Below, one piece after another: positions 11,035 to 60,444 of a stretch of DNA of 64,000 nucleotides (position 1 is its first letter; each line of letters opens with the position of its first letter). This DNA comes from Hyposmocoma kahamanoa. Lineage: Eukaryota; Arthropoda; Insecta; Lepidoptera; Cosmopterigidae. The translations under genes were made by a program, and so were the position numbers. The stretch is from positions 24,136,077 through 24,200,076 of the forward strand of contig NW_020653854.1 in assembly GCF_003589595.1 (NCBI RefSeq), given 5' to 3'. Under the pieces are notes generated by a model. That model ran no database searches. It saw nothing but the letters and a program-made list of their open reading frames with translations, and was not told where the DNA came from.

Positions 11035-11178
11035 TTAACTCCACTGGTTTTTATTATGATTAATTATTACAAAGATCGAACACATAGAAAAACTTTTTCG
11101 ACCCGATGGGACTTGAACCCACGACCATAATGCACCGTAGTTTTGCTCTTACCAACTGAGCTACGGGTCAAGTTATCG
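11035..11178 (-). repeat. SINE-B, best-preserved tRNA-like head
   Basis: On the minus strand: GACCCGTAGCTCAGTTGG, GTAAGAGC, then GTGGGTTCAAGTCCCATCGG and GTC. The acceptor ends GACCCG/CGGGTC pair, the D-arm and T-arm pair, but the anticodon arm does not. The tail GTTCGATCTTTGTAATAATT identifies SINE-B. A functional tRNA was considered and rejected because of the missing anticodon stem and the attached SINE tail. Confidence 0.8.
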
Positions 11179-22284: not shown

Positions 22285-22540
22285 CATTTTGGTAACTATT
22301 TTTTATTTTTGTTGAAAATAATAATTACTTTTATTGATAGTCGTTAACATCTGTACAAAAGAATTACATTACTTAATAGTTGGTGTACGTAATTAGTGAT
22401 TGATTGCTGACACGTCAGGCAGACGCCATTAAAAGATTAAACCTGTATCAGTATAACTGTATAACTATTGCTGCCAAAGCGGATAACCATCAGTCTTATT
22501 TTACAAAATATATTGAAAAAAAAAAGTTATTCCTAAAGAG

Positions 22541-22666
22541 CACAATGATTATAGCAGCCAGCTCAATAATTGTACAACAAGCACAATGATTGTAGCAAGA
22601 AGCACAATGATTTTAGCAAGAAGCACAATGATTAAAGCAACAAACACAATGATTTTAAGCCAACAA
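22541..22666 (+). repeat. 21-bp minisatellite, six units
   Basis: CACAATGATT recurs at 22541, 22582, 22603, 22624 and 22645, with a degenerate unit (CTCAATAATT) at 22562, giving an exact 21-bp period. The unit ends in TAGCAAGAAG or variants. Because the period is a multiple of three it does not shift a reading frame, but no convincing coding frame spans it. Confidence 0.88.
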
Positions 22667-40345: not shown

Positions 40346-40580
40346 TACATAAATTTAGTTTTGTATGGGAGTCGACATGTAACAAAATAAGTGTAATGTC
40401 ATTGGTCATACAAAGGCAACGTTAGGCGTGTACACACGGATCCAATAAGCCAGTAAATAGTTTAAACACGGTGATAGTTATTTGGGTCCATTAAAAGTAT
40501 CTCAACAATAACATAGGACCAAACTGTAAATTAAATCCGCAGAAGAGCAGAATTACGTTACTGTGTAATCATTTAAATAT
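40346..40580. other. Stretch without recognisable gene
   Basis: Nothing recognised. Confidence 0.3.
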
Positions 40581-41045
40581 ACAGTTCTTTTGAACACATT
40601 TCAAACCTAAATGCAGAATTATCCTTATCATAAGATGGCAAATGTTCCTTAGAGACTTGTAGAGAAATTATATTTAAATATTATAGAGACGATACAGAGA
40701 AATATGTACTATTGTAAGTATGAAACAATAAAATATACAATTGTTTTGAAGACATTCCAAACCTAAATGTTGGAATAACCTTGTCATAAGATGGCAAAAG
40801 TTGACGCTTAGAGGCTTGAAATTAGACTTAAACATTATAGAGACGGTATAGAGAAATAGTACTATTGTAAGTATGAAACAATAAAATATTACAGTTCTTT
40901 TGAAGACATTCCAAACCCATTCCAAACCTAAATGTAGGAATAACCTTGACATATGATGGCAAAAGTTGACGCTTAGAAACTTAGGAGTGCAATGAATGAT
41001 ACAGAGAATTAGTACTATTGTAAGTATGGAACAATAAAAAATATC
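40581..41045. repeat. Tandem array, three units of about 155 bp
   Basis: Units start at 40581, 40737 and 40891 with ACAGTTCTTTTGAA or ACAATTGTTTTGAA, and each ends with GTACTATTGTAAGTATGAAA or a one-base variant and an ACAATAAAA block. Unit three has a short internal duplication of CATTCCAAACC. The unit length is near nucleosome size, as in satellite DNA, but only three units are here. A 92-codon minus-strand frame across it is an artefact of the repeat. Confidence 0.9.
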
Positions 41046-45916: not shown

Positions 45917-45982
45917 TAAATTCCTGACATTGTTGAAAACGGTTATGCTACAAAGTTACCTTCTTACGTAATATGTTTAAGG

Positions 45983-46316
45983 CTCGTATTCTAGAACTCT
46001 ACTCAATGCTCAAGTTAGGATTTGAGTATGGTTTAAAGCACTCGAAATCATACTCAAGTCCCTGCCATTAGGGTCGTATTTCCATTGCTTGTGTTTCAAT
46101 TGCAATCCTGACTTGAGCATTGAGTAGAGTTCTAGAATATGACACTTAGGATCGTATTCTAGAACTCTACTCAGTGCTCAAGTCAGGATTTGAGTATGGT
46201 TTAAAGCATTCGAAATCATACTCAAGTCCCTGCCATTAGGGTCGTATTTCCAGTGCTTGTATTTCCAGTGTAATCCTGACTTGAGAATTGAGTAGAGTTC
46301 TAGAATACGACCCTTA
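45983..46316. repeat. Two tandem copies of a 160-bp hairpin element
   Basis: Each copy (about 45983-46143 and 46148-46316) starts CGTATTCTAGAACTCTACTC and ends with the complement GAGTAGAGTTCTAGAATA. Inside each, GAGTATGGTTTAAAGCA and CATACTCAAGTCCCTGCC add a nested inverted segment, and ATTAGGGTCGTATTTCC repeats the outer GTCGTATT. The copies differ at few positions, so the tandem duplication is recent relative to other repeats. The left flank GTTTAAGG and internal TTAGG do not give a clear target duplication. Confidence 0.92.
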
Positions 46317-46425
46317 GACTGATATATTGAACGTTATGACACGCCGCGTTGTAATGAACTACTTTATTAATATGCATACGTATTTTGTAGTGTGTTTTCT
46401 AGCTATTCTTGTATTATATTCTTGT

Positions 46426-47437: not shown

Positions 47438-47890
47438 TTAAATAATGTAATAATGGGAGCGCGAAAAGGTCATAATTTCGCATTTACCATTGTTGAATAG
47501 CAGCTTGTTGTCCACACTCCATTTGCTCACTGCGACGATGTCCTGTTGCAAAGCATAACAGTCCTGGGTCGACTTAATGGGCATGACAAGTTTCACATCG
47601 TCGGCGAATAATAAAACCGTGGCCTTGTTAACAGCTGTTGGAAGGTCATTTATAAAAATAAGAAAAAGGAATGGTCCCAAATTTGATCCCTGACTTATGC
47701 CAGAACGTGTATGGTATGGTTTTGACTGGTATGGTCCATATCTTACGAACTGTTTCTGGTCTTTAAGATAATCGGCAAACAGTTTTAATAGCCGGGGGAC
47801 GAATCCCATTCTACTTAGCTTCTGCAGTAAAATATCGTTGTCAATCCGGTCAAAAGCCTTTTGCAAATTAAAACAAATTAATTTGTTAGC
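47438..47890 (-). pseudogene. LINE reverse transcriptase domain fragment (CR1/Jockey-like)
   Basis: A 142-residue open frame, the longest recognisable RT piece here. It shows QKAFDRIDND (residues 2-11, the A-motif Asp region), GISQGSNLGPFLF (residues 56-68, the Q-G-S block) and LLFADDVKL (residues 85-93) with the intact FADD catalytic pair. WSVDNKLLFNNGKCE follows, the post-catalytic block. The frame extends upstream a few codons to about 47885 as FNLQKAF. The endonuclease, the N-terminal RT half and the C-terminus are missing, so it is a dead fragment despite the intact frame. Confidence 0.88.
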
Positions 47891-48844
47891 GAATTACAGA
47901 AAATATCTACAACCATGAACCTGCTGTTGTACGTCTGACATGATTGCCTAATAAAGCAATTGCCAATTAAACGTTTTTGCGACTTCTTAATTGAGAAACC
48001 TGTATTCATACGACCAGATCTTTCAATTTGGCGGGGTCTCTGAAATCTATAACGTTCAGTAGAGGTGTCGAATCAAATTCATTATTTATTACTTTATATA
48101 AACTGGTAGTAACTATGTAATGGCTCTTGAGCAATTTCAGTTTATGCCAAGAGCCTTAATATTTTGCACTCTTTCAATCTTGTCTGTTGAACTGTACAGC
48201 CGAACTCTAACCGATACGAATAAATCTATTAAATAAAATTTTATATGTAAAAGAATTTTTGAAGAGCTTTCCTTAGTAGTATTTATGAGGTCTGTGGTCT
48301 TTCCCAACGTAGGATGAACCCGAACTGTTTATATTTTCCAAAGGTTCCTTCGACCTTCTTGGAAGTACCGGTTTTATCACAATATTTACCACCATGGTTA
48401 GCGAAAGTATTTATCTCAGAATTAAAATCACATACATGTCGCCATATTGATTCGGACCGTTAGCTTCTCAATGGAGCAGCAACTGTTTTCCCACTAGGCT
48501 GCTACCGCTTTTAGTTTTTCAATTAGAAATAGCAATGTTTATTTGCTATGTAATGTAACTAGTTCACAAGTTATGGTAACAATCATTTTACCATGTGGAA
48601 TGTAAACAAACGGAGTGGTGGTTATAAGAGGATCGGGGCGGCTCCGTGCCGACCTACTTTGATACCGCGTAACAATTATGATAACGTTCCTTTCTCTGAT
48701 GTGCCACATAACGATATTTACTTGCCTTATACTTTGTTAACTATCACAGTCTACTTGTATATTTCATATGTCCCGTTTTAGATCACGTCTCTATTAAGCG
48801 GATTAATTTTTGATCAACAAATCAAGTCACAATTACGTTTCTAA
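47891..48844. other. Stretch without recognisable gene
   Basis: Upstream of the RT fragment (minus strand) no endonuclease motifs were recognised. A 62-codon plus frame lies at 48593-48781, motif-free. Confidence 0.35.
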
Positions 48845-56984: not shown

Positions 56985-57228
56985 CAAGTGACGGGATGAT
57001 AAAGTCGCGGGCCTGGTGGTAAGCGACACGTCTCTTCGTAACAGTTGCAACTGTTACGAAGTCACTTAGATCTTTAAACCGCAAAGACCCTCCGGGCATT
57101 GCCACTGGGCCCGTCACCTTGAGACATATGTTGACAAGAAACCCTTCAAAACCGAAACGCAGTAATGCTCACATTACTGCTTGCCGGCAGAAATAGGTAA
57201 GGTGACAGTACTGCCCTGGACGCCAAGC
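56985..57228 (+). repeat. rep-D copy
   Basis: CAAGTGACGGGATGATAAAG to GGTAAGGTGACAGTACTGCC. The outer end is cut off by the adjoining LINE piece. Confidence 0.83.
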
Positions 57229-57749: not shown

Positions 57750-57754
57750 GATCG
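57750..57754. repeat. Transib target-site duplication, left (GATCG)
   Basis: Identical to 60440-60444. Five base pairs fits the Transib/RAG integration signature. Confidence 0.93.
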
Positions 57755-57790
57755 CACAGTGGAGTATTTGACTTAAAAATCCGGTCAAAA
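57755..57790 (+). repeat. Transib left terminal inverted repeat
   Basis: Opens with CACAGTG, identical to the consensus heptamer of vertebrate recombination signals. An A-rich TAAAAATCC lies 12 bases after the heptamer and TCAAAAGTC lies 23 bases after; both match the RSS nonamer ACAAAAACC at six of nine positions. The transposase is expected to bind and nick here. Confidence 0.93.
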
Positions 57791-58020
57791 GTCGAAAAAT
57801 TTTTTTTTAACAAAAGAGGCCCTAACTACATTGTTTGTACGCCTCACTACATGGGTTATCATACACCGGTTCCAAAATTGACCTCAAGCCCGCCCGCTCG
57901 GGGTACAGGTCGTCGGAATCTAGTCGATGTTGAATGCGCACGTCTTTGTTCTCGATACGCACTTAATTTCTATTACTTTACATTTTGAGTTTTGTGTAGT
58001 GATTTTTGAGAAGATTTTCA

Positions 58021-58039
58021 ATGGATACTGAGGCTCAGG
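58021..58039 (+). other. Predicted transposase exon 1
   Basis: ATGGATACTGAGGCTCAGG encodes MDTEAQ plus one base and ends at a consensus donor (CAGG|GTATGT). Joining to the acceptor at 58345 keeps the reading frame of the long exon. The alternative is an unspliced start at the ATG at 58327 inside TTAAGATGG, which lies before the acceptor. Confidence 0.55.
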
Positions 58040-58345
58040 GTATGTACTACATTTTGATACCAAATGATGTTCGTTTTTCTATATGTATAATTTATTTTTT
58101 ATGAGCTACACTAAAGTATAAATACTTTTGACGAAATTGTTTAGAACATAAGTGTTTTTGTTGTTGTTCCGGGCAAGATCGGGCAAATAGACTTTTAATA
58201 ATATTAACTATGCATCTTAATAATGCTTTCCATACAAAAATATCTCACCCATCTTGCCACCATTTTTTTTTATAACTGTTCATCTTACGTAGGTAGTTTT
58301 TCGTTATACTTGCTCATTAACTTAAGATGGTGTTTTTTGTTTTAG
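58040..58345 (+). other. Predicted 306-bp intron in the transposase
   Basis: Begins GTATGT and ends with the pyrimidine-rich TTTTTTGTTTTAG. It carries GGGCAAGATCGGGCAAATAG near 58173 and CTCACCCATCTTGCC near 58244, a small inverted pair. No stop-free frame crosses the intron. Confidence 0.5.
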
Positions 58346-58884
58346 GTTCGACCTCAAAAAATATCCAAATGTCTCGAAGATCATTGTACATGATTTTCAA
58401 AGACAGCAGTAAACGAAAACTGGATCAAAAGTTATTGGGCATGGAACAGAAACTACTGGAATTAACGAAATGTCCAGAAAATGAGTTCCAAACTTTAAGG
58501 AATGATCTGAAACATTTTAGGTCAGATTTAAAGCAAAGATGGAGCTTAGCCAATAACACAGAAGCCCGTTTTTTAATAAAAAATAAAAAATGGTTAGATG
58601 CTTCCATAACATTGCATAGCTGGTCAAAAATATCTTCGTCAAAACCAGGACGACCAAACAAGGCGTTCCAGGAATTAACTGATCGCAGCAAGAAACGCAA
58701 AGCAAAAGAACGTCGAGAGCAGGTGCCTGTCGAAGAGCTGACATATGCTGCCCGAGTCAGTCAACGAAAATTAGGAAACGTCGAAGCATCGAACATTATA
58801 AAAGACGTCACTGCCACTCCCACAAGGGCGAAAAAGTTTAAAAAAGCGCTTTTCGGGGCTCAACAAATGTCTGTAAAGAAACAT
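58346..58884 (+). pseudogene. Transposase segment 1: N-terminal DNA-binding part
   Basis: Highly charged and helical (KLLGMEQKLLELTKCPENEF, LRNDLKHFRSDLKQRWSLAN). A Gly-Arg-Pro element SKPGRPNKAF follows, reminiscent of the G-G-R-P hook in the nonamer-binding region of RAG1, and then the Transib-typical ELTYAARVSQRKLGN and IIKDVTATPTRAKKF. It ends at the TGA codon 58885-58887; the frame continues open beyond that stop. Confidence 0.82.
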
Positions 58885-58887
58885 TGA

Positions 58888-59124
58888 GATTCAGAAGCTT
58901 TGTCCCTCTTCATTGAGTGTGATTTTACCAAAAGACAATACGAAATATTACACGAGTCGAATAAGAGTATCTATCCATGTTATTCGCTAGTCAAAGCAGC
59001 GAAAAAGGATTGTTATCCGAGGGAAGAATCAATGCGTGAAACAGAAACTTGTGCAGAAGTTTATCTCCAAGATTTATTAAATCACACGGTTTCTAGACTG
59101 ACAATATCTAGAAGATGTATTTGA
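58888..59124 (+). pseudogene. Transposase segment 2: linker after the in-frame stop
   Basis: Same frame as segment 1. DSEALSLFIECDFTKRQYEI and IYPCYSLVKAAKKDCYP match the E-A-L-x-L-x-x-x-x-x-L-x-x-x-Q-Y and I-Y-P-x-Y blocks of Transib proteins. YLQDLLNHTVSRL closes it before a shift into the next frame. Confidence 0.8.
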
Positions 59125-59809
59125 AACCTGTACTTCAGAAGAATTACAAGATATGGAACTTATAACGAAGTGGGGTTGCGATGGTAGTCAACAGAGTCAA
59201 TTCCAGCAAAAGTTTGAAAACGATTCAGAAGATGATTCCAATATATTTGAAAGTTCATTGGTTCCTATACGATTACAATCAAATATCGGAGACCAAAAGA
59301 AAATTTTATGGCAGAACCCAACACCGTCATCGCCGCGGTTCTGTCGGCCAATTCGAATAAGGTTCCTTCATGAAACTGCAAGTATTATAAAAAATGAAAT
59401 AAAATATGTAGAGGACCAAATAAAACAATTGACAAAGACACAAGTATCAAATTCTACTGGAGTGATGTATGTTCGACATACCTTGGTTCCAACCATGGTA
59501 GATGCAAAGGTGTGCAATGCGGCCACGGGTACAACGTCGACCATGAGATGCTACATATGTGGAAAAACATCAAAAGAGTTTAACGATTTTAAAACAACCA
59601 AGACGGAAAATCCTGAAGCACTTAAATTCGGGCTTTCAACTTTACATGCGAGAATCCGATTATTTGAGACACTCCTGCACATAGCCTATAAAATGCCTTT
59701 TAAAAAATGGCAAGCTAGGGGTGAAGATGAAAAAAATATTGTCAAAGAAACGAAAAAACGAATTCTAAAACATTTCAAACAGAAAATGGGATTGATTGTA
59801 GATGTCTAA
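59102..59809 (+). pseudogene. Transposase segment 3: both catalytic aspartates and C-x2-C
   Basis: The frame opens at 59102 (LEDVFETCTSEELQDME). KWGCDGS places the first catalytic Asp at 59180-59182, equivalent to RAG1 D600. SPRFCRPIRIRFLHETAS and a charged helix follow. MVDAKVCNAATG places the second Asp at 59501-59503 (RAG1 D708). RCYICGK supplies the zinc cysteines (RAG1 C727/C730). FGLSTLHARIRLFETLLHIA and FKKWQARG are Transib hallmarks. Ends ...KQKMGLIVDV at a stop caused by a shift. Confidence 0.9.
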
Positions 59810-60236
59810 AGCCGGCTTTGGAAATTCAAACTCGGGAAATACAGCCAGAAGGTTTTTCAGTGATCCTGAAACAGCTTCTGAAATCACAGGCATCGACATA
59901 GGCCTCATCCAGAAGTTTAAAGTAATATTAGAAGCTATTTTCTCTGGCCATGAAATCGATGAAACCAAGTTTGCAAATTTTGCCCAAGAGACCGCGGAAC
60001 TGTATGTGAAATTATATGGTTGGCATCCAATGACACCCGCATTACACAAAATCCTCATACATGGTAATACTATTATCAAGCATGCCCTTCTACCTATCGG
60101 ACAACTCTCTGAGGAGGCTGCTGAAGCCAGGAACAAACATTTTCGGTCACCCTTTTTTACCAGAAACTGTAAAACTGTTTGTGCAAGTGGATCCTTAAAA
60201 GTTCAAGAGTTGAATGTGGAAAATTGTGGGTGTTGA
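59802..60236 (+). pseudogene. Transposase segment 4: H-x4-H and catalytic glutamate
   Basis: The +1 frame relative to segment 3, overlapping it by eight bases. GFGNSNSGNTARRFFSDPE leads into helices. HKILIH (His codons at 60045-60047 and 60060-60062) matches RAG1 H937/H942. LLPIGQLSEEAAEARNKHFR aligns with the RAG1 region around E962; the Glu at 60123-60125 (A-E-A-R-N-K) is the best match. Residues after KHFRS do not follow the expected pattern, suggesting a further shift or deletion. Confidence 0.9.
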
Positions 60237-60290
60237 AATAATTTTTTGTAGTGAAGCCTTGTATCATGTGTATGTATTACTATTTTTGGC

Positions 60291-60296
60291 AATAAA
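60291..60296 (+). promoter_or_regulatory. Polyadenylation signal AATAAA of the transposase gene
   Basis: AATAAA about 55 bp after the last stop, inside the element and followed by T-rich sequence. Confidence 0.6.
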
Positions 60297-60403
60297 TATT
60301 AAATATTTCTTTTTTTTCACCCTGTATTATTACAGTAAATTAACTATATAGTATTGAAAACAGAATTTTAAATGATCTCAAATAAAAAAATGGCAACAAA
60401 TAA

Positions 60404-60439
60404 TTTTGACCGCATTTTGAGGTCAAATACTCCACTGTG
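60404..60439 (-). repeat. Transib right terminal inverted repeat
   Basis: Read inward from the end: CACAGTGGAGTATTTGACC, then TCAAAATGC after 12 bases and TCAAAATTA after 23 bases. It shares 33 of 36 positions with the left end. The GCGGTCAAAA / CCGGTCAAAA block at positions 27-36 is conserved between the ends. Confidence 0.93.
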
Positions 60440-60444
60440 GATCG
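60440..60444. repeat. Transib target-site duplication, right (GATCG)
   Basis: Identical to 57750-57754. Confidence 0.93.

Follow-up and report, generated by a model that had tools for sequence, protein, structure and literature searches.

A broken Transib copy with CACAGTG ends in Hyposmocoma kahamanoa and the terminal motifs of related families in the same genome

We analysed a stretch of 64,000 nucleotides from the lepidopteran Hyposmocoma kahamanoa (contig NW_020653854.1, positions 24,136,077 to 24,200,076 of the forward strand), hereafter called the window. Its interval 57750-60444 is a Transib element together with its two GATCG duplications, and one sense-strand gene occupies most of the element. 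This is a dead copy of a rare Transib family, apparently new as a family but of a known kind. Both of its ends begin with CACAGTG, the consensus heptamer of the V(D)J recombination signal sequences (RSS), a match that is probably due to chance within a constrained motif. The features are given below, with catalytic residues aligned to HzTransib of Helicoverpa zea and with reference to a second copy of the family elsewhere in the assembly (the C2615 copy).

57750..57754, no strand: left target site duplication GATCG, 5 bp
57755..60439, plus strand: Transib element, 2685 bp (terminal repeats, protein matches, genome comparison)
57755..57790, plus strand: 5' terminal inverted repeat, 36 bp, heptamer CACAGTG
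57785..57790, plus strand: distal nonamer-like block TCAAAA of the 5' end, 23 bp inside the heptamer
58021..58039, plus strand: predicted first exon, ATG, MDTEAQ plus one base (predicted splice; start codon and donor also in the C2615 copy)
58040-58345, plus strand: predicted GT-AG intron (the C2615 copy likewise has donor and acceptor)
58346..58887, plus strand: N-terminal part of the transposase, open until an in-frame TGA
58648..58656, plus strand: GRP motif of a predicted RAG1-NBD-like domain
58885..58887, plus strand: premature in-frame TGA stop; the C2615 copy has no stop there
59083..59119, plus strand: first frameshift, somewhere in this stretch (against the C2615 copy and relatives)
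59180..59182, plus strand: first catalytic Asp, aligned with HzTransib D126
59501..59503, plus strand: second catalytic Asp, aligned with HzTransib D225
59549..59560, plus strand: C(2)C zinc motif CYIC
59789..59825, plus strand: second frameshift, somewhere in this stretch (against the C2615 copy and relatives)
60045..60062, plus strand: H(4)H zinc motif HKILIH
60123..60125, plus strand: catalytic Glu, aligned with HzTransib E436
60148..60149, plus strand: site of a deletion of about 127 bp; most of the part beyond the catalytic Glu is lost
60404..60409, minus strand: distal nonamer-like block TCAAAA of the 3' end, 23 bp inside the heptamer
60404..60439, minus strand: 3' terminal inverted repeat, 36 nt, heptamer CACAGTG
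60440..60444, no strand: right target site duplication GATCG, 5 bp

The two terminal inverted repeats (TIRs) match at 33 of 36 positions and each begins with CACAGTGGAGTATTTGAC. With up to three mismatches allowed, an 18-mer of these ends occurs twice in the window, against 0.05 expected (100 shuffles). The features of the Transib superfamily are thus found together: TIRs starting with CAC, a 5-bp duplication, a homologous transposase, and the DDE, C(2)C and H(4)H residues. A DNA search of the host assembly (728 Mb, 2727 contigs) with the element gave at least 26 matches. Its own family is represented among them by a single long copy on C2615, by a 3' fragment on C2340 and by pieces scattered over C1536, while the remaining matches are other families at 64-78% or short matches to the ends. 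The C2615 copy is 97% identical (2340/2406 columns plus 283/294) and its frame is likewise interrupted; no intact copy of the window family was seen in the 728-Mb assembly. All five ends of the family that could be read (two of the window copy, two of C2615 and one of C2340) have CACAGTG. The boundaries claimed in an earlier, sequence-only reading of this DNA are upheld, and its suggestion of a distinct subfamily is borne out insofar as the family is separate and low in copy number.

Across the assembly, the 18-mer of the element ends has three exact matches and three with one mismatch, and at up to two mismatches 51 matches were obtained compared with 17 for the pattern read backwards. One of the one-mismatch ends, on C402, lies flanked by CGTCG in a diverged remnant, with 76% over the last 67 bp, and no partner end was found for it within 3.6 kb. 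A variant two mismatches from the end of the window element, CACAGAGGAGTATTTCAC, occurs at nine places on several contigs and possibly belongs to a further Transib or to a short non-autonomous family.

The protein confirms the assignment to Transib and the presence of the RAG1-core landmarks that had been read from the sequence. The catalytic D, D and E and both zinc motifs were located, all in broken frames, and two pieces of the transposase (59153-59806 and 59802-60233) match the HzTransib chain 6pqn (E = 1.9e-45 and 4.1e-35). The N-terminal piece has no comparable match to 6pqn, because that chain lacks the region. The HzTransib profile match has E = 1e-151, with profile positions 172-656 aligned and few short gaps; the alignment runs through the zinc and C-terminal parts. 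A search with the read-through protein gave 708 relatives, and among the best 120 of these the closest is P0001 (84% identical, 665 aa), whose first residues, MSRRSLY, are found in the frame after the predicted intron. Nine of these 120 carry an organism name, in each case that of an insect. The predicted structure of P0001 (pLDDT 89.6) has its best fold match in HzTransib (6pqx, E = 1.2e-37, TM-score 0.91 over the target), and all 49 fold matches with E <= 0.001 are HzTransib, RAG1 or BbRAGL, so that the best protein and fold matches stay inside Transib/RAG1. Pfam returned nothing above its cut-offs for the pieces of the element, and P0001 reached only E = 0.0025 against RAG1 (PF12940), under the cut-off. 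An N-terminal RAG1-NBD-like domain is predicted for the window protein; by sequence alone, profiles match the RAG1 NBD weakly, at 4.9 and 2.7 bits. The viral and genome collections yielded no relative of the transposase. A single 18-mer match to the element end was observed in viral contigs.

To place the window heptamer among its relatives, we searched the assembly with P0001 and obtained 69 matches, of which 30 were cut out as loci and joined by five of the other 39, making 35 loci examined. Ends were counted where a 5-bp duplication was present, one mismatch being allowed, and the script demanded CAC at both ends. Such ends were found in 29 of the 35 loci; no ends were obtained from L010, L031, L033, L035, L038 and L040, the first of these being the C2615 copy (both ends, no duplication). 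The 29 copies fall into 16 families by our own grouping, and one copy per family gives 32 ends. The sample leans to the clade of the window family, as the families were fished out with a relative of the window protein. The 5-bp duplications are identical in 27 of the 29 elements and have a G+C content of 0.75, compared with 0.37 for the window sequence.

Among the 32 ends the commonest heptamer is CACATAG (9, in a sample leaning to the window's clade), followed by CACAGTG and CACTATG (6 each), CACACAG, CACGGTG and CACTGTG (2 each), and CACATAC, CACAGAG, CACTCTG, CACAGTA and CACAATG (once each). CACWATG, given in the sequence-only reading as the typical Transib end, fits seven. It was right that the window element lies nearer to the RSS than the family average, with no mismatch to the RSS heptamer against a mean of 1.44 over these 32 ends from the same genome. 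CACAGTG is found at both ends of the window family and of L042/L052, at the 5' end of L027-L030 and at the 3' end of L036/L039, hence in four of the 16 families, and its 6 ends compare with 4.38 expected from the column frequencies. L027, L028, L029 and L030 are four copies of one family with mixed heptamers, CACAGTG (5') and CACATAG (3'). The two heptamers of a family agree in 6 of the 16 families. The CAC of all surveyed ends is given by construction, since the end-reading script required it; without this requirement, of 30 distinct loci 22 had CAC as the top hit, three had another sequence and five had none. Position 7 is G in 30 of the 32 ends.

A transposase tree (midpoint root; L029, L030, L043 and L050 not included) places the window family inside a fully supported clade of 17 rows. 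The seven other families of this clade contribute 14 ends, with 9 CACATAG, 2 CACACAG and one each of CACATAC, CACAGAG and CACAGTG. On the tree CACAGTG requires at least three changes at the 5' side and at least three at the 3' side. As CACAGTG is scattered and occurs near its expected count, and as the two heptamers differ in most families, it is one state of a drifting motif. One could instead suppose that the exact CACAGTG marks a Transib lineage standing specially near the source of V(D)J signals, and both ends of the window element do have the exact RSS consensus heptamer with CAAAA exactly 23 bp inside each. We consider this very improbable in view of the scatter and the count, because 13 of the 14 ends of the neighbouring families are not CACAGTG, and because no RAG1 or BbRAGL is as close to the window protein as HzTransib. 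The exact heptamer thus does not indicate a special V(D)J link, and the claim that this locus illustrates the Transib-RAG relationship in a special way is not supported: three other families of the 16 share the motif, and according to passages of the reviews PMC6941560 and PMC8355894, heptamers and nonamers that equal those of the RSS are already on record for some Transib ends.

The layout of the ends is more telling than the exact heptamer. In 28 of the 32 ends, CA[A/T]AA is found 22-24 bp inward of the heptamer, which is the layout of a 23-RSS. In 1000 shuffles each, the mean number of ends was 0.69 with single bases (range tested 21-24) and 1.01 with dinucleotides (range 22-24), with a maximum of 6 in both, although the two ends of a family are not independent in these tests. 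Any other 3-bp range away from the 22-24 peak gives at most 6 of 32 ends. Between deep groups (352 pairs; groups of our own, two of which, L034/L036 and L042, are sisters on the tree), identity is 0.62 at positions 31-36, 0.45 at 4-7, and 0.30 at both 8-18 and 19-30; with a shift of one position allowed, it is 0.77, 0.58, 0.38 (8-18) and 0.41 (19-30). The window element itself has the heptamer and the 23-bp spacer of a 23-RSS but not its nonamer ACAAAAACC, of which the CAAAA core alone is kept: 6 and 5 of 9 letters agree at spacer 23, and 6 and 6 at spacer 12.

The four ends without CA[A/T]AA at 22-24 are the 5' ends of L022, L034, L048 and L050. Those of L022 and L034 carry the related blocks ACATTA and GACAAT, while in L048 the block lies 13 bp inside the 5' end and 23 bp inside the 3' end, and in L050 at 14 and 24. 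L048 and L049 (C8:11547700-11553000 and C648:12551000-12556600) share the arrangement of a 5' CACTGTG with the block at 13 and a 3' CACGGTG with the block at 23, the ends being read from two copies. Their family looks recently active, because 20 of the 69 P0001 matches have an uninterrupted 657-residue frame, L048 among them. L050 (C523:12109500-12114800), a single copy, has CACTATG and CACTGTG with the block ACAAAAAT at 14 and 24, 7 of 9 nonamer letters at each, in a 12/23-like arrangement.

On this basis we tentatively propose, as a possibility that we rate at somewhat below even, that insect Transibs use a bipartite, 23-RSS-like end in which a CAC heptamer is followed after 23 bp by a CA[A/T]AA block that a RAG1-NBD-like domain recognises, and that in two families of this genome, one of which has many intact and nearly identical copies, the two ends differ by one helical turn (13/23 and 14/24). 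Several points weigh against it. The 5' end of L048 has a second CA[A/T]AA at 20 and a run of A at 23 (L049 has the block at 13 only), and it agrees best with ACAAAAACC at spacer 23 (7/9, inside the A run), while its 3' end scores 5/9, spacer 23 being no better than 13; these observations weaken the 13/23 reading of L048. Moreover, according to passages of PMC8289069, most Transib families have symmetric TIRs, and TIRs of the Hztransib type show little or no similarity to the nonamer.

If the proposal is correct, the spacer logic of V(D)J recombination would be a transposon invention that is testable in a present-day insect. Positions 4-6 of the heptamer drift, whereas G7 and the CAAAA about 23 bp inside are retained, and this difference between drift and retention tells likely constraint from coincidence in the resemblance to the RSS. 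The value of the window element lies in giving entry to a genome with at least 16 Transib families with readable ends, where those with a one-turn difference between their ends are places to test a 12/23-like rule.

Taken together, it is highly probable that the locus holds a Transib copy whose inverted ends match, whose target site is duplicated over 5 bp and whose transposase gene is broken, that this copy was likely moved by cut and paste through an intact RAG1-like transposase of its own family, and that its heptamer likely matches the RSS by chance. Judging from the biochemistry of HzTransib and RAG1, two transposase subunits would pair both ends, with the N-terminal NBD-like domain predicted to hold the A-rich CAAAA block inside each end. 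The DDE core would nick directly outside CAC, hairpin the flanking DNA and release a blunt transposon end, and insertion across a 5-bp target, usually GC-rich, would have produced the GATCG duplication. The copy then decayed, as seen in its stop codon, two frameshifts and deletion; it had been called complete, which holds for its ends but not for its gene.

Two other explanations fare worse still. The RAG1-core landmarks and the RAG1 structures among the fold matches of P0001 could suggest a RAGL (RAG1L-RAG2L) transposon or a domesticated RAG1-like gene, but in both sequence and fold RAG1 and BbRAGL match far less well than HzTransib, the transposase frame is broken, and three antisense reading frames had no Pfam match up to E = 0.1, kelch and RAG2 included (shorter decayed RAG2L pieces were not sought), so that we give this almost no credence. 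That the true element is larger or smaller, with the 36-bp repeat internal to a composite, is equally implausible: the C2615 copy lacks a matching duplication (its flanks are CTGCG and CGCTG), but it matches the window element from the first through the last base, the shared sequence stops at CACAGTG since a comparison of the 600 bp beyond each end of the window element with the C2615 locus gave nothing better than E = 0.9, and sister families end at the homologous place, each with its own duplication. Within the window family, the duplication is therefore documented by the window copy, where the two GATCG are identical as had been claimed, and not by C2615.

Several other features were observed in the window. 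An open reverse transcriptase piece on the minus strand at 47438-47893 (PF00078, E = 1.5e-18) is possibly a remnant of a retroelement, and a tRNA gene for Thr lies on the minus strand at 11098-11170 (ARAGORN). Tandem repeats occupy 40575-40982 (unit 156 bp), 45980-46317 (168 bp) and 22539-22654 (21 bp). In the left flank of the element, about 50 bp at 57168-57222 match three places in the C2340 locus L012 at 88-95%, as a short dispersed repeat.

The figure of Transib ends in PMC8355894 reportedly goes back to Kapitonov and Jurka 2005. Within the portions available of the literature on Transib together with CACAGTG or similar ends, no table of Transib ends as text was found. HzTransib (6pqn, 6pqr, 6pqu, 6pqx, 6pqy and 6pr5) has the same transposase core, DDE and zinc residues as the window element, and likewise TIRs and a 5-bp duplication (passages of PMC1852546). 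It differs in length, with 3518 bp and a deduced protein of 489 aa (same source) against the 2685 bp of the window element, and its solved chain enters the alignment only at profile position 172, unlike the relatives of the window family, which are about 665 aa long and have an extra N-terminal part with the NBD-like domain. Its catalytic residues D126, D225 and E436 and its flank hairpin are described in parts of PMC6941560, and a GC-rich 5-bp target is reported for RAG in a passage of PMC11844651.

A GRP-bearing equivalent of the NBD is described in Subgroup I and II Transibs in sections of PMC9435367, which also report that Subgroup II includes both symmetric and asymmetric TIRs, lacks the RAG2-binding alpha11-alpha12 region and has a CTT2-type tail. 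The window family, for which a domain of this kind is predicted, may belong with Subgroup II, a placement that derives from the HzTransib match and not from the tree of that paper. In PMC8355894 (Figure 2), Transib ends are shown with a nonamer-like sequence at symmetric spacers of 20-22 bp, and 12/23 pairs are given for Transib5 of Drosophila and for Transib2 and N1-N3 of Anopheles; these elements likewise combine a heptamer with a nonamer-like block at a fixed distance, which in the window element is 23 and 23 by our count. Both the 23-bp layout and the NBD-like domain of Transibs are already described in kind. ProtoRAG and other RAGL elements share CAC ends and 5-bp duplications with the window element (passages of PMC7204232 and PMC8289069) but carry RAG2L, for which the three antisense frames tested gave no Pfam match. 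Compared with the V(D)J system, the window element differs in its partial nonamer, in having the same spacer at both ends and in that RAG2 was not found in those three frames; it resembles the RSS and RAG1 in its exact CACAGTG, its spacer of 23, its CAAAA core and the RAG1 core fold, and a domain like the RAG1 NBD is predicted for it.

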